Shown: in pieces, positions 1-21,471 of the stretch
Numbering within the stretch: position 1 is the stretch's first letter
Layout of the letters: every line of letters begins with the position of its first letter
DNA from: a virus
Direction: 5' to 3' (one strand)
Virus record (IMG/VR): IMGVR_UViG_3300020468_001124
Span: 1-21,471 of that record
Length of the DNA stretch: 21,471 nucleotides
Made by a program: the position numbers and the translations under genes
Notes under the pieces: generated by a model
Databases searched by the model: none
Told to the model about the DNA's origin: nothing
What the model saw: only the letters and a program-made list of their open reading frames with translations

Positions 1-186
1 ATCGTTTGCTCTGTAAGCAATTTTATATCCTTCCTCTGTTACCTCTGCCTGATAAGTTGTATAGTCACCTACAGGTAGTTTTAAATCTGGTAATTTACTT
101 TGTTGTCTAGTTGATAGGACACCTATCATAGCTATATGTGATACACCTACAAGAGTTCCTAAACTAATTCCAATCCACTTATTCAT
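1..186 (-). CDS. Small membrane-anchored phage protein, 3' end cut by the window edge
   Basis: The first 62 codons are visible, starting at an ATG at 186, and the frame stays open to base 1, so the C-terminus lies outside the window. Residues 4-24 are hydrophobic and contain small residues (IGISLGTLVGVSHIAMIGVL), followed by a polar, Pro/Lys-containing stretch. This suggests one N-terminal membrane segment or uncleaved signal anchor with a soluble domain after it. The gene lies 35 nt downstream of another tiny membrane-protein gene and follows the structural cluster on the same strand. No strong ribosome binding site is visible; the best is a weak AAGA about 5 nt before the ATG. Similar short membrane-anchored proteins occur in cyanophage genomes as conserved hypotheticals. 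The function is unknown. Confidence 0.75.
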   Translation of the reverse strand, partial: MNKWIGISLGTLVGVSHIAMIGVLSTRQQSKLPDLKLPVGDYTTYQAEVTEEGYKIAYRAND

Positions 187-221
187 TTATCTTGATTTCG
201 TAATATAATATATGTATAAGA

Positions 222-299
222 TTAATTATGTGGATCGTAATATCTTATCAACCATCCTGTCACTGCTATTACTACAACAATAATTATTAAAGTTGCCAT
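222..299 (-). CDS. 25-residue single-pass membrane miniprotein
   Basis: This short frame begins with ATG at 299, two bases after the TAA of the large structural gene, and ends with TAA at 222. It encodes MATLIIIVVVIAVTGWLIRY followed by YDPHN. Residues 3-19 are almost entirely Ile/Val/Leu/Ala/Thr, a convincing transmembrane helix, with an Arg-Tyr-Tyr-Asp tail. The position between two same-strand genes, the fit to the gap and the hydrophobic composition favour a real gene, but at this length chance cannot be excluded. Possible roles include a small membrane modulator during infection or lysis, which is speculation. No homologue is recognised. Confidence 0.5.
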   Translation of the reverse strand: MATLIIIVVVIAVTGWLIRYYDPHN

Positions 300-301
300 C
301 T

Positions 302-3300
302 TTATGCCTGTGCTTCAGTCCATGAAACTCTGATGTCAGCAGCACGTCTATTAGAACCACGACCACCAGCGATGTTGGTGACCTGAATTCCTAATACCTC
401 AGGACCATCTGGGAAAGTACCTGTTGGATTAGGTGCTGTTGTAGCAGTGAAGTTATCAAATCCACCACCAAGAATTGAGTTGGATAGTTCTTTAACTCGT
501 CCAAGATCATATGCAGCAACACCAGTATCAGCATAGAATCCAAAGATAACTTCTCCTCCAATTAATTCACCGTTAATTCTACCACTACCATCAACGATGT
601 TACTAAGTTCTGCGTATTGTGCTAGTGATGTACCACCAACATTCTCCCATATAATAGTGTCAGAAATGTTTGGATTAAGAATTAGTTCAACAAACAACGC
701 ACCGTTGGTTGAGATCTCACAAGAGTTTAGAACCAACTGCATTCTATTAACAAGTTCTCTAGCACCAAATGAACCAGGAATACCATTGTCAACTGATGGT
801 GAAGTACGAATAGCTAGCAACGCTTTTGTTTGTCCAGAGTTAATTTCCCTACCAGTTCTAGTTCCAACCGTGTAAACATATGCTCGGTCATCGTCATAAC
901 GACCATCCATGATAACAGAAGAACCCCAGTGACTTATCTGTGGAACTGACGTCGCTTCCAGAAGTTCAATGCTGGTTGGTTGTGCTACATCATATGTGAA
1001 TCCTTGTGCAGATGCTGCTCCAAGTGGAGAAAATGTAATACTTGTTGGGTTAGCAGAAGTAACTGCCTTACTCAATGAAATAGAAACACCAGAGATGCTA
1101 TGAACATATGTGTCAGCAGGAACTCCAGATCCATAAACTCTTTGTCCTTTTTGAATACCTGTACCAGCACTTACACTACCAGAAGAAGTTCCAGATGCCA
1201 TGGTCAAGTTAATTCCAGATGCACCTGCTTGTTCTCTAGTAATACCAGTGAAAGAACCAGCATTAGCACGAGACAATGGAGATAATGCAGAACCTGTTGC
1301 ATCATTTATTGCAATACCAGTTGCATCTCCAATAGTATCAGTGATTTTAAATGTAGTTGCAGAAGGAACTGCAGCAACATAATATACTTTCTTAGCTACA
1401 ATATTAGAGAACGGTGTGTCAAATGTAATTGTTTGTTGTCCGCCAGGTGCTAGACCAGTTGTAGATGCAACTGTAATAGTATCACCAGCTGCTTCAGAAG
1501 CAATAATATCTTGTTGGAATACAACTTTACCTGTGTAGTTAATGTATTCTTGTGTACCAGCAGTAGAACTAGTAGTTTTTCTAACTCTTAGTGTGCCAGA
1601 GTCGGGAAAATGTGTAGGTGCTTGTGAAGCATATAAAGTAGTATCACCAGAAGTAAATGTTCTAGAACATGTAGTTGCAGGTGGAAGAGTATTAACTTCG
1701 TAACGAGCTGGTAGGTTACCAGATCTCATGTATGCTTCAGTGTTCTGGTTGTTGTTAGGAATCTTATGAGCGTAGATAACATCACCATTCAATGCACGGA
1801 AACCCCAGCGTACAAAACCTGCACCATACCAAGAGTAGTCCATGTAGAACATCTGCATTTTGGTTGGGTCAAGAGTGTAACCAGTCTTACCAGTTCCATC
1901 ACAACGGTCAATGTTCCAGTCTCCCTGATTCCATTCAGTCTCAACAGTTTGAGTGATAGGAACGTTACTTGCTGAAGGTCCACGATAGTCAGGGAAAATA
2001 ACCATCTGAGTATCAGAGATGATACCATCAACACGATAAGAAGCACCACGAATGACAACATAGTCACCTGGTTTTAATTGCTTTGCAAACTTAGTTGTTT
2101 GTAGGTTAGGACCTGCGAAACTAGAAACAAGAGTGTTACCATTTGTTACTGTTACTCTACCAGATAACTGGAAGGTAGAAGTTCTACGAACAACACTAAG
2201 ATTTCCACTCGCCCAACGGAAGAAAATACCATTCTGTTGATCCATCATACCAATCTCTAGTTTAGTTCCATAAGAATTAACTGGAGTGATAGTGTATTGT
2301 CCTGCAGCAGTAGCATCTGTTGGAGCAGAGCTAGCAGTGTACTGGAAAGTGTATGGGTCAACAACGTTACTAACATTGTATGTGCCGTTGTAGTTGTTAT
2401 CGTTTACGCCTTGAACCTTAACAACTGTGTCTCTAGTAACGTTATGTGCATCAGTTGACACAACAGTAATAGTAGTACTAGATGCAGTGATGCTATCAAG
2501 GTTTTCAATAGCAGGTTCTAGTATAGAACCAGTAGAGAATGAAACACCTTTACCAGACTGATATCTAAAGTAACGTTTTGTCTGTCTTATTGCTTGTTGG
2601 TTTTTAGAGAATGAGTTGGTAGAAAATTTAACACCACCATCAAATGCTCTATGAACTGAGTTACCTTGTGGTCTAGGATATAGTTTAATAGTTCCTGTTC
2701 CAACAGATCCAGTAGGTGCTGCGGATGGATAGTAATAAAATCTGGTTGGAGATTCTACTCTTGCTACAACCCAAGATCCATTAACGTTAGTACCAGCAGA
2801 TCCAGAAATTGCAACCTCGTTACCAACTTCTAAACCATGTGCTTGTGTGGTATCTACCTGAACAGATCCAGACATGACACCTGCTGCTGGTGTTGTTAAT
2901 GTAATTGTTCCGCCAAGATCAGATCCACTAAAATGAATACCAGAATATACTGCAGTTCTAGCAGAGTCATAGATGTCTGTACCACCAGTTCCTGATGGCC
3001 ACTCATATTTTGCAGTGTATTTGAATCCAATAAATGCACCAGTGGTACTCTTACTATCAATAATAAACACACCATTAGCGCCAGGAAAAGTAGTGTCTTG
3101 CATGTAGATAGCAGTACCTGCATCTGGTGGTGTAGAACAAGAGACTGCCATCTCTCTACTACCACTAGTAGTATTAATTTCTGTAATTACGATAGGTGTT
3201 TGAGACTTATAAGCAAATGGATTATTGTTGATCGTTGCTAGAGCTTCCCATTTAGTATCCTGAGTACCATACTCAAAGTCAGTATCAATCTGTGACTGTG

Positions 3301-3640
3301 GTTGAGAAACCTTAGACTTGTTTACAGCATCATTGAATGTCTCTGATGGTTTAAATGTCTCTTCAAATTCATCAACGATGATCTGTAAATCATCAGTGTC
3401 TGACATTCCTGTTGTATCATATTGTAAGATAACCCTAGTTGTTGTGACGTTTCTGATATCAGTTTGAATAGTGTAAGTAGTAGCAGTAAGCTCAGGATCA
3501 GAGAAGTTATATATTATTTTATTGTCAGTCACATTGGTGATCAAAATAAGGTTCTCTCGCTGAACGCCACCAGGAATGATAACTTCTCGCGTTGAAGCAT
3601 CAAATAGATAGTAGTTACTCTGAATAGTTTTCCTTGCCAT
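302..3640 (-). CDS. Large virion structural protein with repeated beta modules (1112 aa)
   Basis: The protein is rich in Thr, Ser, Gly and Val, as expected for a beta-structured tail or virion protein, and has no signal peptide or membrane segment. The N-terminal 150 residues look like a distinct, more acidic domain. At least three related modules follow, at about residues 163-210, 257-307 and 383-437. Each has an AH-like element, a hydrophobic strand, an N-x-N-G-x-[WY/F] turn and a closing F-x-[YF] strand. A looser fourth copy is near 713-777. Such modules recur in cyanophage structural proteins and often score as FCCH-like or Ig-like domains in profile searches (family knowledge, not tested here). 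The C-terminal 200 residues, from the region with GRYDDDRAYVY, appear to be a separate, non-repetitive domain. A late promoter motif lies 35 nt before the ATG. The likely role is tail, neck or fibre component; the exact T4 counterpart is not identified. Confidence 0.8.
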   Translation of the reverse strand: MARKTIQSNYYLFDASTREVIIPGGVQRENLILITNVTDNKIIYNFSDPELTATTYTIQTDIRNVTTTRVILQYDTTGMSDTDDLQIIVDEFEETFKPSETFNDAVNKSKVSQPQSQIDTDFEYGTQDTKWEALATINNNPFAYKSQTPIVITEINTTSGSREMAVSCSTPPDAGTAIYMQDTTFPGANGVFIIDSKSTTGAFIGFKYTAKYEWPSGTGGTDIYDSARTAVYSGIHFSGSDLGGTITLTTPAAGVMSGSVQVDTTQAHGLEVGNEVAISGSAGTNVNGSWVVARVESPTRFYYYPSAAPTGSVGTGTIKLYPRPQGNSVHRAFDGGVKFSTNSFSKNQQAIRQTKRYFRYQSGKGVSFSTGSILEPAIENLDSITASSTTITVVSTDAHNVTRDTVVKVQGVNDNNYNGTYNVSNVVDPYTFQYTASSAPTDATAAGQYTITPVNSYGTKLEIGMMDQQNGIFFRWASGNLSVVRRTSTFQLSGRVTVTNGNTLVSSFAGPNLQTTKFAKQLKPGDYVVIRGASYRVDGIISDTQMVIFPDYRGPSASNVPITQTVETEWNQGDWNIDRCDGTGKTGYTLDPTKMQMFYMDYSWYGAGFVRWGFRALNGDVIYAHKIPNNNQNTEAYMRSGNLPARYEVNTLPPATTCSRTFTSGDTTLYASQAPTHFPDSGTLRVRKTTSSTAGTQEYINYTGKVVFQQDIIASEAAGDTITVASTTGLAPGGQQTITFDTPFSNIVAKKVYYVAAVPSATTFKITDTIGDATGIAINDATGSALSPLSRANAGSFTGITREQAGASGINLTMASGTSSGSVSAGTGIQKGQRVYGSGVPADTYVHSISGVSISLSKAVTSANPTSITFSPLGAASAQGFTYDVAQPTSIELLEATSVPQISHWGSSVIMDGRYDDDRAYVYTVGTRTGREINSGQTKALLAIRTSPSVDNGIPGSFGARELVNRMQLVLNSCEISTNGALFVELILNPNISDTIIWENVGGTSLAQYAELSNIVDGSGRINGELIGGEVIFGFYADTGVAAYDLGRVKELSNSILGGGFDNFTATTAPNPTGTFPDGPEVLGIQVTNIAGGRGSNRRAADIRVSWTEAQA

Positions 3641-3674
3641 TACCTATGTTCCGTGTAGTATATTATGCTTTATG

Positions 3675-3682
3675 TATTTATC
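3675..3682 (-). promoter_or_regulatory. T4-type late promoter motif GATAAATA
   Basis: GATAAATAC reads on the minus strand here, matching the NATAAATA late promoter described for T4-like cyanophages. It overlaps the stop codon of the 1438-residue gene, and its downstream edge is 35 nt before the ATG at 3640. The same motif at a similar distance occurs before other structural genes in this window. Confidence 0.65.
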
Positions 3683-6600
3683 AGACTCCGTACCTAGTAC
3701 GAGTAGCTTCAAAGTTTGTCAGTGCTTCACTAGCTGATAGACCGCGTGCGTAAACACGAATTTGTCCTATCTTACCAGTGTACTGGAAAGAATTACCTCC
3801 ATCAACGTATCTACCAATCTGTACAGATCTTCCTCCAGCATTAAATGCTGCATTACCAACTCCGTGATCAAACGTATCTTTTAAAACTCCATTTGTATAA
3901 GCTTTAATATATCTTGACTCGGTTAATGTACATATGAGATGATACCATTGATTTAGATTCATTGCATCTGGATCAAGGGCAAGCTTACCAGCAGTACCAC
4001 CTGTAGCAGCACCTCTTGCTCTAAACTGTCCAGAATTAAGAATCGCTATGTCTCCGCTTAATCCAGTGCCACCAATACCAACAACTCTTGCACTGCTATC
4101 ACCATCAGTGGGTGTAAAGTTAGAAGTATTAACCCATGCCTCTAAAGTAAAACCAGCAGCAAGTCCAGAAAATCCAGTCACATGAGAACTAGATAGTTGA
4201 ATTTCACTATCAGTACCATTAAAGACAAAGGCACCATCATCTTCATCGTACGTAATATTATTGTACGTTGATGTGTTAAATAAATTTCCTGTATCTACTT
4301 GATTTGATAGAGCAGTTGTATAACCACTAATACTTTTTGGTGCGATAGTAGTAGCATAAGTTGGTTTATTTACTGTAACACTATCTGTTAGTATAACTGT
4401 ACTAGCAGAAGATCCTTCTTCTAGTTGAGCACCCCAAACATAAATCACATTACCTACAGCTGGAACGCCACCTTGGTGTTGTGGTTCAAATCCTATATTC
4501 ACATTTGTTTCATCACTTCCACCAATTGTTTTTGTATAGGTGAGTCTCTTCCATGATCCATCAGCAGGAATAGTTGAATTAGCATTTGTAGAATATGGAG
4601 AACCACCTATTCTGAATTGAAGTACTTCACCTGCCATACCAGATCCTGCCTTCACCCACATACTCATTGTATATGTTTTGTTTGCAGTTAAAGTGCCTTG
4701 ATGATATAAGTATGGATCAGTATTAGTAAATTCCCATTTTGTAGCAGTGTATGATCCATCTGGTGCTAATACTTCTGTAGTATTCTCTGTCCATATTGAA
4801 CCAGCTTTAGCACCACTCCATAAATCACCTGGTGTTCTTCCATATGGAAATAAATTATGAGATTTAGTATAGATTAATTCATCTCCAAAATCAAAATTCA
4901 GTCTTAAAGTAGGATCAATAACTATACCAGTAATATCAGGTCTTGTTTCAGTAGCAAGACCCTGCAAGACCTTTCTAGCGTTATAATTTTGAGATATTTC
5001 TGGTGCTGTTAAAGCTCTTTGATAAACACGAACCTCTGCAATCTTACCAATAAAGTATTCACTTGCACTTCTAATCTTTCTTCCTATTTCAGCAGCACTA
5101 GATCCATCACCAGTAAATGCAGGAGGAGTTACTGTTTGTTCAACTCCATTGATACTTACATAGAAAGTTGAACTTTTTCTATAAAATAAAACATGATTCC
5201 ATTCATTCAAATTACAAGTTGCTGAGGTATTAGAACCACCAGTCGTGTATATTCTTACAGCTAAAAATTGTAATTTAAAATCAAAATCTTCTGTTGAAAA
5301 TATGTTGGCAAAAACAACTGAAGATGTAGGGTATATCCAAGATTCAATAGTAAAATCTCCAGAACCAAAAGAAAAAGAAGGACTCTCTGGAAATTCTATG
5401 ACGTCATTAGTTCCATCAAAATTCCAAAAACCTTTACTATCTTGACTAGCACCATCCACTGTACCATCAAGACCATTACCTGATTGATCTTTAACAACAG
5501 TTTGAGTTGTGGTTTGAGTTGTGGTTCCACCTGCAGCAGGAGTTTGATCTGCTGTCAATGTAGACGGGAATGATCTTCCAGTACCCCAGATAATTCTTAC
5601 CGCACCATCAGCTCCTCCTCTAGCACAGTTACCATTACCTCCAGAAGCACCGCCACCTCCATACTTAGCATGAGTATTTGAATTACCAGAATTACAAGTT
5701 CCTATAGTAGCACCAAGCTCTCCAGCAACTCCTCCTGATCCACCTGTACCACCAGTTGACTGTCCACCATTAACAAAAACTCCACCATTACCATTTGATC
5801 CTTCACCAAATATACCTACGCCACCGCCACCGCCACCTTGTTGGTTGTTTGGGTAACCTTGGTTACCACCTCCGCCACCTCCGCCACCAGATCCGCCAGA
5901 GCCAGATCCACCAGCAGATTGTGCGAAACCACCATTTCCTCCATTACCTGAGTATCCACCAGCTCCGCCACCTCCACCTCCACCAGGTGGACTTCCAGTT
6001 GTTCCTGATGCACCACTACCACCGTTTCCTCCATTACCACCACCATCTCCTACATAATCTCCACCGAAACCATCACCAGGTAATTGTACACCGCCATCAG
6101 GATATCCTCCACCGCCATTACCGCCACCACCTTTGACAGTAGATGTGCTTATAAAATATGAATCTTCTGCTTGAGAAGCAGGATATGCAGATTTAAGACC
6201 TCTGTTTCCAACGACAACAGTATATGAAGAACCAGGAGTTACTGAAATATTATTTTTCCATCCTAGTCCGCCACCGCCACCAGCAGTGTTATCATATCCT
6301 CCTCCACCACCACCAATAGCGACTACAGATACAGATGTAACATCTGCAGGAGCAGTCCAACTAAAAGTTCCTGCTGTAGTATATTCTTGTTGATCTGTAG
6401 GACTCGTGTTAACAGTTTCTGTAAAGGTACTAGTTTCTACTTTAGATCTTATGTCTAGAGATTGATTATCAACAGGTCTAATAGCAGGACTACCATGGTA
6501 ATCAAATAAATCTTTTTCTTTATGTCTAGTTTTTTTATAAGCAACATTAGTAGCTAGATCATCTCCAAGCAAAAGATTCAATCCACTGTAAGGATAAGAA

Positions 6601-11637: not shown

Positions 11638-13704
11638 TTAAGTTATAACAATGCTATTAGACATACCACCATGGAACTGACAAATGTAATAGAGAGTAGT
11701 TCCTCCTAAAGTAGCTGTGTAAAGAGTAACAGTTCCACTTACACTTCCATTTCCCGAAACACCACCACCAGAATAATCAACTCCGTTAACAAATGTTGGA
11801 AGTTGATTACCAGTTCCTGTAGTAGCAACAGTCTTTATCAAGAATGGATGACCAGAAACATTCAAGGAAAAGTTAATTATATCACCAGCACTCACATTGA
11901 TTGTTGGATCTTGTGCGTTAACATGAGTGGTCACTCTATCAGCACCATTGAACACATAATATAATGCACCGACATTAGTAACATTAATTGTGAATGTCTT
12001 AGATGTATTATCTGGTGCTGCTCTATAAAACATTGGAGATCTAGGAAATGTAAGACCACCATCAGCATTGTTTCTAGAACTGACTTGATTAGAAATCATT
12101 CCTGTTACATCTTGTCTAGGATTCTTAGCAATCAAATATCTATCAGGACTATCTTTCCTACAAGAATTATCATCAAAATTTCCACCGCCTGAATCCCAAG
12201 TCATATCATTGTAGATACTAACTTTATCTAAGTATGCTTTAGCATCATTTTGACCGAACCTAGGTTTATAAGAAGCTAGACAAGCGATTACACCTGCTAC
12301 TTGTGGTGATGCCATACTAGTACCACTAATTGCTTGGTAATAATTTGAACCACCATACTTACCATCCGCTTGTCCATTAGAATTATAAGCAGAAATAATA
12401 TTATCACCAGGTGCAAATACATTAATGTTAGGTCCGAAGTTGGTGTAAGTAGATCTTCTAAAATTTTTGTAACTTGATATAGATCCAACACTAATAGCAT
12501 TCAAAGAATTACCAGGACTAGATCCTCTATTATAATAAACTGTTCCAAGTCCAGAAATACTTACTAGGTTATTGTAATCAGGATTACCATCATCAACACA
12601 ATGAAAATTATTGTTACCAGCTGCAGCAATAATAACTACACCTTCTTTAATAGCATCTTCAATGTCAGCTCTAACTGATGCGTTGTCTGCATTGAGTTTC
12701 ATTTTATTAGATGCAAAACCAAAGTCTGCTTCTAGTCCCGCCCATGTCCATCCAGAAGGATTAGGATTACCACTATTATAAGTTGTTCCTCTATAAACTA
12801 CCTGAGTAATATCAGCAAGATCAAGACTTGCTTTCTCTAATATATCATCTAAAGGATATCCATAACTCCAACTATGATTTGTGATGGTTGGATTCTTGAC
12901 ACCAGTATCAGGATTGACTGTCTTGCTTCTATGAAAAGCTCTTAAGTAATCAAAGATTAATAGATCTGGTACGGGTGTGCCTTGGTTAGAACTATTACCA
13001 AGGACTTGCATACTATAAATATTTGCTTCTCTCGCCCACCCATAGTGTTGTCCTGCTACTGTTCCAGCAACGTGTACGCCATGGCTCTCTGTGTTAGTAG
13101 CGTTGTTAACATAGTTTGGATATGCTCCTGTAGGTAATGTTTGTCCATCATCATCAATAGTTCCGACAAGAGTATTCAAATTACTATACCAATCATATTC
13201 TACAAATCTAGATAGACCTGTGCTAGGACTGAACCATTCACTACAATCAGATGATACTGGATCATCACAGATAACCACATCAACATGCTTACCATCGTTG
13301 AAAACATCTACAGAATTTCCAGTAAGGAGATTGATTCCATCTCTTCCAAAAGTTGTTTTACCTCTTTGTACAGTATCACCAGCACAATGTACGTGTCCCC
13401 ACTGTCTATCGTTAGTGGATATAGTTCCAGTAAAAATATTTTTCCAATAATCTCCGTTAATATTATATGGAGTATAGTTAAGTACATCTCTAGTCATTAC
13501 CATGCCACGTTCTTTTGGTGACAACTGTACATCCCATACTCTAGGATCTTGACGTAATATTTCTGCTTGCTCTTCAGTCATTTTGTAATGAGTATTCCTA
13601 CTCATAGGACGCTTCATTACTAAATGATAATCACTCATCTCATTGTAAAACTGCTCCAAATCTTCATGCTTATAGAGCGTTACGATGTAGACTTTATTTT
13701 CCAT
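11638..13704 (-). CDS. Subtilisin-like (S8) serine protease with C-terminal cupredoxin-like domain (688 aa)
   Basis: Residues 1-65 resemble a short inhibitor-type prodomain. The S8 core follows: candidate catalytic Asp147 in VDVVICDD, His208 in HGVHVAGTVAG, oxyanion Asn364 in AAAGN, and Ser463 in GTSMASPQVAG, so the triad looks complete. The usual Thr/Ser/Met after HG is Val. The spacing between Asp and His (about 60 residues) is long enough for an insertion. Residues about 565-688 form a beta domain in which His619, Cys675, His678 and Met681 reproduce the His-Cys-His-Met ligand set of type 1 copper sites (GHP then YYICQFHGGM). Cupredoxin-like modules of this type are seen in marine phage and bacterial surface proteins. 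The gene sits between fibre genes, 1 nt after the previous stop, so a virion-associated protease or self-processing fibre component is the best inference. No secretion signal is seen. Confidence 0.85.
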   Translation of the reverse strand: MENKVYIVTLYKHEDLEQFYNEMSDYHLVMKRPMSRNTHYKMTEEQAEILRQDPRVWDVQLSPKERGMVMTRDVLNYTPYNINGDYWKNIFTGTISTNDRQWGHVHCAGDTVQRGKTTFGRDGINLLTGNSVDVFNDGKHVDVVICDDPVSSDCSEWFSPSTGLSRFVEYDWYSNLNTLVGTIDDDGQTLPTGAYPNYVNNATNTESHGVHVAGTVAGQHYGWAREANIYSMQVLGNSSNQGTPVPDLLIFDYLRAFHRSKTVNPDTGVKNPTITNHSWSYGYPLDDILEKASLDLADITQVVYRGTTYNSGNPNPSGWTWAGLEADFGFASNKMKLNADNASVRADIEDAIKEGVVIIAAAGNNNFHCVDDGNPDYNNLVSISGLGTVYYNRGSSPGNSLNAISVGSISSYKNFRRSTYTNFGPNINVFAPGDNIISAYNSNGQADGKYGGSNYYQAISGTSMASPQVAGVIACLASYKPRFGQNDAKAYLDKVSIYNDMTWDSGGGNFDDNSCRKDSPDRYLIAKNPRQDVTGMISNQVSSRNNADGGLTFPRSPMFYRAAPDNTSKTFTINVTNVGALYYVFNGADRVTTHVNAQDPTINVSAGDIINFSLNVSGHPFLIKTVATTGTGNQLPTFVNGVDYSGGGVSGNGSVSGTVTLYTATLGGTTLYYICQFHGGMSNSIVIT

Positions 13705-18612: not shown

Positions 18613-18641
18613 ATTATAATGTAATTTTTGGTTTATGTCAA
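18613..18641 (-). promoter_or_regulatory. Consensus sigma70-type promoter upstream of talC
   Basis: On the minus strand, TTGACA (18641-18636) and TATAAT (18618-18613) are separated by exactly 17 nt, which matches the bacterial consensus at all 12 positions. The -35 box overlaps the TGA stop of the upstream oxygenase gene, and the -10 box ends 35 nt before the talC ATG. It would let the host housekeeping polymerase transcribe talC and the genes after it early in infection. Confidence 0.75.
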
Positions 18642-19138
18642 CTTCTTGTCGTAAAATTAAAATTAACAACAACTCTTCTCATCTCGTCTGTACAAGTTAC
18701 AGCTGCATGTCTTGTAGAACAATCAAATATTACCATTCTATTTGCAATACTTTCTACCTTTGTACCATCTTCAAACATAGTATATCCATTATTAGTATTA
18801 ATATACATGATAGATGTTGTTAAGATATCTTCATTACCATCTAAAAAATCTGTATGGTAATTACCTACATGATGTTTCTCTCTTTTATAATTCAAATTTG
18901 CTTTATGTTTATGTAACATATCTACATTTAATAATTTAAAACAATTAGTGTCATCAAATAAACAGAAAGAATCACTATTAATTTTAGATCCAACAATAAA
19001 ACTATGAACTAATTGACCATCCCCATCACCTTCATATGTACCAAAATCATTCCAATACCAAGGAAAACAATCTGATAATAAAGTAGATTGAATTTTATTA
19101 AATTGTTCTATTGGTAGAAAATTATCTACTATCTTCAT
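18638..19138 (-). CDS. 2-oxoglutarate/Fe(II)-dependent oxygenase (166 aa)
   Basis: The facial triad is visible: His95-x-Asp97 in VGNYHTDF, and His144 in FDCSTRHAAV. Arg154 or Arg155 lies about ten residues later, in MRRVVVNFNF, and is placed to bind the 2-oxoglutarate carboxylate. The MVIFDCSTRHAAV segment matches the strand-HxxV end of phage 2OG-Fe(II) oxygenases. The substrate is unknown; such genes are widespread in T4-like cyanophages. It overlaps the preceding 62-residue gene by 17 nt, indicating coupling. It lies directly upstream of talC, whose promoter overlaps its stop codon. Its length is shorter than prolyl hydroxylases, typical for the phage group. Confidence 0.85.
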   Translation of the reverse strand: MKIVDNFLPIEQFNKIQSTLLSDCFPWYWNDFGTYEGDGDGQLVHSFIVGSKINSDSFCLFDDTNCFKLLNVDMLHKHKANLNYKREKHHVGNYHTDFLDGNEDILTTSIMYINTNNGYTMFEDGTKVESIANRMVIFDCSTRHAAVTCTDEMRRVVVNFNFTTRS

Positions 19139-19310: not shown

Positions 19311-19549
19311 ATCCAAATTTTTTCTGATCCGTTACCCAATTCTTTTTTCCATTGGGTAGATAAATTATACATGATTTCATGAATATTGTCTAGCTCTTCA
19401 CTACTATTATTTTCTAATGTGATTAAGTTTTCTTTTACCAGTAGATCAATCATGTATTCCTGTTGTTCTTTTGAATAAGCTGCAGGTCCAAACCATGGGT
19501 CATATGGTAAAAACTTGGGTGCAGGTATTCCAGTAAAAGTTTTAGTCAT
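19307..19549 (-). CDS. Small unknown protein, 80 aa
   Basis: I start it at ATG 19549, where ATGACTAA overlaps the GIY-YIG stop codon; a longer version would be mostly a read-out of that gene. The N-terminal part is Pro/aromatic rich (FLPYDPWFGPAAYS) and the rest is acidic helical with a Leu pattern. No catalytic motif is recognised. It is coupled to genes on both sides by short overlaps. Confidence 0.65.
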   Translation of the reverse strand: MTKTFTGIPAPKFLPYDPWFGPAAYSKEQQEYMIDLLVKENLITLENNSSEELDNIHEIMYNLSTQWKKELGNGSEKIWI

Positions 19550-19979
19550 CTTTGTTGTTAAAATAATCTTTCCTGTAATAACGACCAAGTATGTTAGAAT
19601 TATAGAATGCAGGTGTGCCATCTGTCAAAGTTTGTGATAAAACGTCATTAAGAAAAAGTTGTTTGGTCTCTTCATAGTTAGTTCTTCCTTTGGTAGTATG
19701 CAAACTTAGAATTTCTCTGCTAAAGGATTCCTTACCGTACTCCTTAACGTCTGACTTGAGTTCGGGACAAGACCCATAATACTTTTTCCAATCAGACTCT
19801 GAGGTAACTCTTCTCTTTCCACCCCTAGGTTTCCTCTTCTGCACAAAATATTTTCTACCGATGTACTTCTTACCTGTTGACTTATTAGTAATGAGGTAGA
19901 CGTAACCGAAGAAATCGCCAATATCATCAGAAGTGAAAGCTGTACCTTTGTAGTACCAGGAATTTTCATAATCAACCAC
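19542..19979 (-). CDS. GIY-YIG endonuclease domain protein (145 aa)
   Basis: The signature GYVYLI (25-30) and KKYIGRKYF (37-45) contains both GIY-type and YIG-type elements plus the conserved Arg42. A W-x(3)-YYGS segment at 64-70, a Ser-Arg-Glu-Ile-Leu strand at 87-91, a candidate catalytic Glu103/Glu104 in NYEETKQL, and an Asn near 127 complete the site. The domain nearly fills the protein, so it lacks the extra DNA-binding domain of many homing enzymes. Stand-alone GIY-YIG proteins occur in many T4-like phages, some as homing endonucleases; whether this one is mobile cannot be seen. The start is GTG at 19979, with no strong ribosome binding site. Confidence 0.85.
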   Translation of the reverse strand: MVDYENSWYYKGTAFTSDDIGDFFGYVYLITNKSTGKKYIGRKYFVQKRKPRGGKRRVTSESDWKKYYGSCPELKSDVKEYGKESFSREILSLHTTKGRTNYEETKQLFLNDVLSQTLTDGTPAFYNSNILGRYYRKDYFNNKDD

Positions 19980-20002: not shown

Positions 20003-20010
20003 TATTTATG
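20003..20010 (-). promoter_or_regulatory. Possible late promoter motif CATAAATA before the GIY-YIG gene
   Basis: CATAAATATTAG on the minus strand overlaps the TAA stop of the pcyA-like gene and ends 24 nt before the GTG at 19979. The motif and spacing fit the late promoters of the structural block, but part of it is the stop codon itself, so chance is a fair alternative. Confidence 0.4.
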
Positions 20011-20695
20011 GTTCATCAAATAATACTTCATTAATATAGTCATCCGCCCACTTTTCACCAAAATATTTTTCTAAAATCTTTCTAGTTTTATCATTCTTTC
20101 TCTGTTTTTCACAGTAATTTATCTGTCCTTCGTATCTTTCATCTGCTCTGTTGTAATTCATAGTTGATTTCCAGACAGCACCTACAAATACATCAAGGTA
20201 TTCGTTAACTACATTGGAAAATGTATCAATTTCCTTTTCGTTATCTAATCTTGCAAATTTACAATAAGGTGAAAATATTTTACCCCATGCAGGTAACTCT
20301 CTATTGTGTTTTAAAGTATGGTATCTACTAATATCTTCAATGTCTTCATAGATTGGATGATCTACACCATCTACAGGAGAGATGTCTGTAATAGCAGCAG
20401 TGACAATGTTCTTACTAGCTACAATATCAGCACCAAAAATAGGTAAATCAAACTCTGGATCAGGATACCATATACAATGTAAAATATCCAGTGGTCCTAG
20501 ACTAGCAATTTCTGTATGTACCTTGCGTAATCCAGTACACATATGCATGTCATTTTGAATGATTAACTTACCATCCTCTGTTTCTTTATAAACCTCTCTA
20601 AATTTATCCTTGACATCCAGTTCCTCTATGTTAGGTAGAGTATCTTGATGCTCACGAATGATATCAGCTAGGTCATTAATTATTTGTCTTGCCAT
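20006..20695 (-). CDS. pcyA: Ferredoxin-dependent bilin reductase, PcyA-like (229 aa)
   Basis: PcyA reduces biliverdin IXalpha by four electrons to phycocyanobilin, using reduced ferredoxin. The hallmark block runs LRKVHTE, LDILHC, P-x-PEFDLPIFGADIVAS at residues 56-94. It preserves the equivalents of the three PcyA active-site residues: Glu62 (Glu76 in Synechocystis), His73 (His88) and Asp90 (Asp105). A second familiar element, WGKIFSPYCKFAR, occurs at about residues 136-148. The C-terminal helix-rich part (from about 160) matches the family. It starts 2 nt after the pebS stop. The intact Glu argues for PcyA rather than the related phage PcyX enzyme, which makes phycoerythrobilin; an assay would settle this. 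The symbol is by family resemblance. Confidence 0.85.
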   Translation of the reverse strand: MARQIINDLADIIREHQDTLPNIEELDVKDKFREVYKETEDGKLIIQNDMHMCTGLRKVHTEIASLGPLDILHCIWYPDPEFDLPIFGADIVASKNIVTAAITDISPVDGVDHPIYEDIEDISRYHTLKHNRELPAWGKIFSPYCKFARLDNEKEIDTFSNVVNEYLDVFVGAVWKSTMNYNRADERYEGQINYCEKQRKNDKTRKILEKYFGEKWADDYINEVLFDEP

Positions 20696-20697
20696 TT

Positions 20698-21324
20698 TTA
20701 TGCATAACTGAAAAAGAATTCTTTGATTAAATTATGGGATTTTTCTTTACCAAATCTACTAGACAAATATCCAGAAATAGGATCAAGTCTTATCATATAC
20801 TTATCAAAGTCAGTATACTGTGAAGTATCAGTTCCTGTTGGTTGATTATCTTCCAACATATTTTTATAATATTGTAGATATTTTGTAAACAAAGGTAAAT
20901 GTTCATCTACCTCTTCAGGTTTACAATATCTAACAACAAGGTTGTCTGAAAAATGATTACCTGCTTCAAAAAATCTATACTTTCCTTCTACTTTAGGTAG
21001 ATCTGGTGTATAAAACAAGTATTTTTCTACAGGATGTTGGAAATCAAACACAATCACAACTCTCTTGTCACTCATTCCCATGAGATCCATACCAAAACAA
21101 GGTAAATTAGATCCTGTCTTAGGGTATATTATATTGTTATGAATACTACAAGATTTATCATCCCAAATTTCAATCTGTCTAGACTTTATAATATGATCAC
21201 CTTTATACAAATCAGCAGTTAGGTTCACACTTTTATCATTAGTCCATTCAGCATGTCGCTGAACAAATTTTACATCTGGAAAAATATTTTTGACAGTAGC
21301 TTTGTAATTTTTCCAAAGATCCAT
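20698..21324 (-). CDS. pebS: Phycoerythrobilin synthase PebS (208 aa)
   Basis: PebS is a phage-specific bilin reductase that converts biliverdin IXalpha to phycoerythrobilin in a four-electron reaction that host cells need PebA and PebB for. This protein aligns along its length, by memory, with P-SSM2 PebS: I-x-N-x-I-[IL]-YPKTG-x-x-LPCFGMDLM, then VIVFDFQHP, GKYRFFE-x-GNHF, VRYCKP-[DE]-EVD, and an FFSY end. The functional residues correspond: Asn63 (Asn88), Asp80 (Asp105) and Asp181 (Asp206) in P-SSM2 numbering. The ATG at 21324 is preferred over TTG at 21345 because AGGTGG lies 10 nt upstream of it and the MDLW start matches the family. It overlaps no gene; the upstream stop lies 4 nt away. 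Confidence 0.93.
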   Translation of the reverse strand: MDLWKNYKATVKNIFPDVKFVQRHAEWTNDKSVNLTADLYKGDHIIKSRQIEIWDDKSCSIHNNIIYPKTGSNLPCFGMDLMGMSDKRVVIVFDFQHPVEKYLFYTPDLPKVEGKYRFFEAGNHFSDNLVVRYCKPEEVDEHLPLFTKYLQYYKNMLEDNQPTGTDTSQYTDFDKYMIRLDPISGYLSSRFGKEKSHNLIKEFFFSYA

Positions 21325-21328
21325 TAAA

Positions 21329-21471
21329 TCATTTCCACCTAGCAAAAAATTCTTTCATTGTTGTTTGATATCCAGACTCACGAGAGGGAGGTTCCTTGAT
21401 CCCCATCATCTTCTTGTAGTCGTTGTGCATCGCTCCCAGTAACCATGCCTGTGCTAGTTGATTCGGTCCCT
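21329..21471 (-). CDS. 3' end of an unknown gene, start outside the window
   Basis: The last 46 codons are visible and end in TGA at 21331-21329. The C-terminal peptide runs GPNQLAQAWLLGAMHNDYKK, followed by a Met-Met-Gly-Ile stretch and an ESGYQTTMKEFFARWK tail. It is amphipathic and probably helical. The frame is open to the window edge, and the AGG-TGG end supplies the ribosome binding site for pebS, so the two genes are coupled. The identity is unknown; ho1, which precedes pebS in some cyanophages, is not supported by this C-terminus. Confidence 0.7.
   Translation of the reverse strand, partial: GPNQLAQAWLLGAMHNDYKKMMGIKEPPSRESGYQTTMKEFFARWK

Follow-up and report, generated by a model that had tools for sequence, protein, structure and literature searches.

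Why a marine cyanophage should keep, side by side, two ferredoxin-dependent bilin reductases (FDBRs) expected to draw on one substrate is the question raised by one end of the window, by which we mean the whole 21,471-base stretch analysed (IMG/VR record IMGVR_UViG_3300020468_001124). The window is presumably only part of a far larger genome of a T4-like cyanophage; related cyanomyovirus genomes are ~170–250 kb. The genes themselves are known. In vitro activity is known for the products of phage pcyA, pebS and ho1, and infection is accompanied by pebS expression; what purpose bilin genes serve in phages has been described as a mystery (PMC3037559). Sullivan et al. (2010) reported pebS and pcyA from different phages, with ho1 occurring together with pebS (PMC3037559), and Nishimura et al. 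listed both genes for one cyanophage group, adjacency being unstated (PMC5332604). A preliminary description of this DNA regarded them as known separately in cyanophages, which holds for the literature, in that we found no open-access paper describing a pebS–pcyA tandem, its spread or a single-clade PebS, but not for GenBank, where phage P-RSM6 already has an overlapping pair. What appears to be new to the literature is the arrangement, its spread and the single-clade PebS.

The 2010 review that credits P-SSM2 (L129) with both pebA and pcyA (PMC2984593) was also checked: P-SSM2 gave a PebS match only and no PcyA match, in agreement with Table 3 of PMC3037559, whereas pcyA is present in P-SSM4 (L136) and others.

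Architecture and expression signals of the locus

Both are minus-strand genes. pebS (phycoerythrobilin synthase, 207 aa; 20698..21321) starts with the ATG at 21321, and pcyA (phycocyanobilin:ferredoxin oxidoreductase, 229 aa; 20006..20695), which also has an ATG start, follows after a spacer of 2 nt (20696..20697) read directly from the sequence. This is the adjacency first described, two minus-strand frames 2 nt apart; only the upper bound of the span then given (20006–21324) needs correction, as it lies 3 nt beyond the pebS ATG. Upstream of pebS is the 3′ end of a small ORF (phrog_16908; 21326..21471, minus strand) truncated by the contig end, a homologue of which is placed between pebS and pcyA in contigs L049 and L054. 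The genes 3′ of pcyA are, in order, a segE-like GIY-YIG endonuclease gene (19542..19979, minus strand; PF19835, 184 bits), small ORFs, a 2OG-Fe(II) oxygenase-like gene, talC, a glutaredoxin gene and tail genes. segE is a mere neighbour of the bilin genes, outside their pathway. We considered the SegE endonuclease as an element moving together with them and rejected this: segE-like genes occur very widely, in 775 phage records, and the ‘endonuclease’ that accompanies pcyA elsewhere often lies 5′ of it or occupies another site. No ho1 is present within the 21.5-kb window, as had been noted before; because the record is a fragment of an incomplete virus, this absence is uninformative.

The late promoter of cyanomyoviruses, NATAAATA (PMC2984593), is found at 20003..20010 (minus strand; CATAAATA), where it overlaps the pcyA stop codon 5′ of segE and probably marks the start of the next transcription unit. 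Its TAAATA core stands directly after pcyA in 62 of 73 testable paired contigs and within 150 nt upstream of pebS in none of 68, the contigs being related and the counts not independent. Sigma-70-like sites inside pebS and pcyA are weak only, and about as frequent as chance would predict in this region; no terminator-like site was found within either gene, and no clear promoter or terminator between them. A late-promoter core after pcyA and not before pebS, together with the lack of internal signals, argues that the pair most likely belongs to an upstream, non-late unit, with nrdB in relatives. With 2-nt spacing and no clear signal between the frames, it is plausible that PebS and PcyA are made together, and we infer co-transcription.

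Elsewhere in the window, two perfect sigma-70 consensus promoters (TTGACA, 17–18 nt, TATAAT; 12/12) occur on the minus strand at 18613–18641, just upstream of talC, and at 19599–19628. TAAATA late-promoter cores are found at 3675, 11628, 14626 and 16946 (minus strand), shortly 5′ of where large structural genes begin, in keeping with the late gene pattern of T4-like phages.

Identity and integrity of the two enzymes

Both proteins score above the cut-off of the Pfam family Fe_bilin_red (PF05996; PebS 58 bits, PcyA 195 bits). Among structures, the window PebS matches P-SSM2 PebS (2VCK, E 8e-69), and the window PcyA matches Nostoc and Synechocystis PcyA (E about 1e-45 to 1e-43; 2G18, E 5.8e-45), but PcyX (5OWG) only at 6e-9. 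In a quick tree of 84 FDBRs, for which cyanobacterial PcyA, PebA and PebB were drawn from a cyanobacterial genome set, the window PcyA falls in the cyanophage PcyA group, beside cyanobacterial PcyA and outside the PcyX branch, which is separate and fully supported; the window PebS groups with phage PebS, which is the sister of PebA, and is distinct from both PebA and PebB.

The window PebS retains Asp105 and Asp206 (P-SSM2 numbering), which we take to be the active-site residues; both are kept in all 77 paired and 96 unpaired PebS, and the chain of 2X9J differs at position 206. PebS with a mutated active-site Asp halts at 15,16-DHBV (PMC13198022). The window PcyA retains catalytic His74, Glu76, His88 and Asp105 (Synechocystis numbering), the last three of which are invariant in 78 of 78 paired PcyA; Glu76 is PcyA-specific, is required for 18-vinyl reduction and is missing in PcyX (PMC10151467). 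Pairwise dN/dS between the window and near relatives is 0.11–0.17 for pebS, and that with the nearest relatives is 0.10–0.12 for pcyA, except for L028 (0.24). Neither gene is therefore decaying, and both are under purifying selection. When clade-specific residues were sought as marks of product change, no column separated paired from unpaired enzymes at a 90/10 cut-off.

Pfam, the structure matches and the tree thus bear out the first assignment of the genes as pebS and pcyA with intact catalytic residues, and the second protein, whose place in a tree had been the proposed check, lies inside PcyA. On these grounds both are predicted to be intact enzymes of the expected families, and the window PcyA a true PcyA, not a PEB-making PcyX.

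Tandem duplication was rejected as the origin of the pair: the two proteins have no significant BLASTP similarity (21% over 101 aa, E 0.18) and lie on opposite sides of the FDBR tree.

Distribution and evolution of the pair

Four IMG/VR scans yielded 79 distinct contigs with both genes, a count that is biased because two of the scans were seeded with the window's own proteins; the order is invariably pebS then pcyA, on one strand. The frames touch, overlap or nearly do so in 65, are separated by ~430 nt and small ORFs in 12, and by ~1 kb in 2; spacings in relatives are +2, −1, −8 or ~−17 nt. With a constant order and mostly touching frames, the adjacency is therefore not due to chance. None of the 80 IMG/VR loci nearest to P-SSM2 PebS was paired, compared with 8 of 80 in the scan seeded with P-TIM40 PcyA; the pair is therefore a property of particular lineages. 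Most phages have just one of the two genes, and P-RSM6 (two accessions) is the sole INPHARED phage matching both.

At least four genome neighbourhoods hold the pair: nrdB to segE/talC (the window lineage), gp32 to hli (L119, L122), peptidase to cobS (L125–L128) and gp17 (P-RSM6). Lone pebS or pcyA genes are found at the same kinds of place. One contig, L054 (IMGVR_UViG_3300006345_000627, 1–6561), has two different pebS genes, one in the cassette and a second after gp32 that is 58% identical to the window's; either this phage has two PebS or the assembly is chimeric.

A single clade, with support of 100/96, contains all paired PebS and also one unpaired subgroup (the L103 group). Paired PcyA do not form one clade (AU test p 0.0007, for a group named before the tree was built and with long branches in play), and five changes of paired or unpaired state are needed on the PcyA tree. 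The deepest split among cyanophage PcyA has paired members on either side, so that a single ancient joining with subsequent losses is here indistinguishable from repeated joining. Partner exchange between pebS and pcyA has occurred as well, as identities to the window show in relatives (L045: PebS 87%, PcyA 63%; L120: PebS 71%, PcyA 81%). On these comparisons, the pair is a long-standing unit that is widely distributed and under selection.

Comparison with known systems

P-RSM6 (HQ634193 / NC_020855), isolated on Prochlorococcus, carries pebS and pcyA (CPXG_00107–00106; annotated in GenBank as phycoerythrobilin synthase and phycocyanobilin:ferredoxin oxidoreductase) with order and strand matching those of the window. 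Its frames overlap by 8 nt, whereas those of the window are separated by 2 nt, and its pair adjoins an endonuclease gene and gp17, whereas that of the window sits among nrdB–segE–talC genes; the PcyA proteins are 45% identical over the aligned part and the PebS proteins 62%. P-RSM6 also has ho1 in its genome, whereas the window is a fragment. The P-RSM6 ho1 (L266, 16089–16787) lies between nrdA and nrdB, ~57 kb from pebS–pcyA, a location that puts heme breakdown beside an iron-type enzyme in one gene run. A paired 27-kb contig (G041) has ho1 as well; on most long paired contigs, which are fragments, no ho1 was found. A ferredoxin gene was present near the pair in only 1 of 32 records.

Stand-alone phage PebS (P-SSM2, P-HM1/2, S-SSM7) belong to the same family as the window PebS (50–56% identity) and keep Asp105 and Asp206, but lie apart from the separate clade that holds the window PebS and all other paired PebS. 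Their phages carry ho1 (PMC3037559), and no pcyA match was found in their genomes. Stand-alone phage PcyA (P-SSM4, P-RSM4, P-SSM7) are likewise of the same family as the window PcyA (38–43% identity) with the catalytic residues kept; these pcyA genes have no adjacent pebS, and the phages are without ho1 (PMC3037559). Adjacent bilin-pathway genes also occur in the hemO–pcyX and valaS–hemO–pcyA/X cassettes (pelagiphage Mosig, CB_2), but these combine a heme oxygenase with one reductase for consecutive steps, whereas the window has two reductases for one substrate; the PcyX of such cassettes is on a separate branch and lacks Glu76. The cyanobacterial pebA–pebB operon resembles the window pair as two adjacent FDBR genes, but PebA and PebB work in series on one pigment and the host pcyA is elsewhere: in ten cyanobacterial genomes (sizes from 1.6 Mb) in which gene positions were compared, pebA and pebB are adjacent, and pcyA is either hundreds of kilobases distant or located on a different contig.

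Proposed function and alternatives

We consider it probable that pebS–pcyA is a two-gene bilin cassette of T4-like cyanophages, expressed early or in the middle of infection and supplying both the red light-harvesting pigment phycoerythrobilin (PEB) and the blue one, phycocyanobilin (PCB). One early/middle transcript would carry both genes and would either stop ahead of the late promoter at the pcyA 3′ end or read into it. Biliverdin IXα would come from a heme oxygenase, either the host's or that of a phage ho1 elsewhere in the genome, as P-RSM6 has. Going by family and catalytic residues, PebS, with four ferredoxin electrons, would convert part of the biliverdin to PEB, and PcyA part of it to PCB. 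Both host phycobiliprotein chromophores could in this way be kept available during the shutdown of host gene expression, by two phage enzymes where the host has three (PebA, PebB and PcyA) at separate loci. The antenna core of marine Synechococcus binds PCB only, with PE-containing strains adding PEB from PebA/B (PMC2246261), and when PebS is expressed in a cyanobacterium that has PcyA of its own, native phycobilisomes incorporate PEB (PMC13197396); these results speak for chromophore supply as the simplest function. Cover of PEB and PCB for a phycobilisome-containing host is also a simpler reading than the competition for biliverdin, or the setting of a pigment ratio, first suggested. That one phage lineage keeps both branches as an adjacent pair under selection, in several parts of the genome, limits what the bilin genes may be for: the products themselves, rather than mere removal of biliverdin, are likely to be under selection.

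Prochlorococcus lacks intact phycobilisomes, so chromophore supply would bring no obvious benefit to P-RSM6; in this host the pair may instead act in iron or heme metabolism or in signalling. As an isolate that has pebS and pcyA as well as ho1, P-RSM6 lends itself to tests of the function.

A more elaborate version of the chromophore reading is conceivable, though we think it unlikely. The tandem would then be a dual-pigment module in which translational coupling fixes the PebS:PcyA ratio and biliverdin from phage HO1 is split between PEB and PCB in set proportion, so that the phage decides antenna colour and energy flow. If this is true, we know of no earlier phage module with simultaneous control over two pigment-pathway branches.

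We give a lower chance, and a small one, to the pair acting in biliverdin disposal and iron release, driving heme breakdown together with a heme oxygenase, with iron or reductant balance as the benefit and the pigments as by-products. NrdB requires a metal cofactor, usually iron, and the place of the P-RSM6 ho1 among the ribonucleotide reductase genes would fit such a role, as would a Prochlorococcus host devoid of phycobilisomes; an iron-supply role has, moreover, been discussed for phage hemO–FDBR cassettes (PMC11480375). A single reductase would, however, be enough to remove biliverdin, whereas two with different expected products are kept, including the PcyA-specific Glu76, which argues that the products matter, and most long paired contigs, fragments as they are, gave no ho1.

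It is quite improbable that PCB (or PEB) serves as a light-sensing or regulatory signal rather than in the antenna; a phytochrome-like protein would be one conceivable target, and GUN4, which acts in chlorophyll synthesis, another. PCB on GUN4 stimulates Mg-chelatase, according to work cited in PMC11480375, and a signal would suit hosts without phycobilisomes, but this would account for PcyA and not for the PebS kept beside it, and no photoreceptor gene was seen among the annotated genes of the neighbourhoods viewed.

Accidental adjacency in a gene-acquisition hotspot, with unrelated metabolic genes side by side and no meaning to the pair, is largely refuted and very improbable: the nrdB–talC region is indeed rich in accessory genes, both genes also occur singly at such locations and the unpaired L103 group lies inside the paired PebS clade, but a fixed order in 79 contigs, mostly with touching or overlapping frames and in at least four neighbourhoods, persists over divergence down to 45% PcyA identity. 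The preliminary description suggested that one enzyme may have drifted. Such drift, whether of the second protein to a PcyX-like PEB synthase, PcyX being a PcyA-related phage enzyme able to make PEB (PMC11480375), or of one copy to inactivity, is very unlikely given the separate, fully supported PcyX branch, Glu76 and His88 in the window PcyA (Asp and Gln occur there only in single rows, read as PcyX sequence), catalytic residues that are all retained, dN/dS near 0.1 in each gene and the lack of any column separating paired from unpaired enzymes.

Other features of the window

A subtilase (PF00082, 688 aa; 11638–13704, minus strand) is encoded among the tail genes, with a C-terminal part that is cupredoxin-like by eye; it is predicted to be a secreted or virion protease. 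Two database labels in the region deserve mention. The SegE GIY-YIG protein (19542–19979) is of a type labelled ‘NAD synthetase’ in PHROGs (phrog_447) and in many GenBank cyanophage records, probably a mislabel that spread. The protein encoded at 18638–19138 (minus strand) has a weak 2OG-Fe(II) oxygenase match, yet carries the phrog_274 label ‘DNA endonuclease V’, which is likely to be a mislabel as well.
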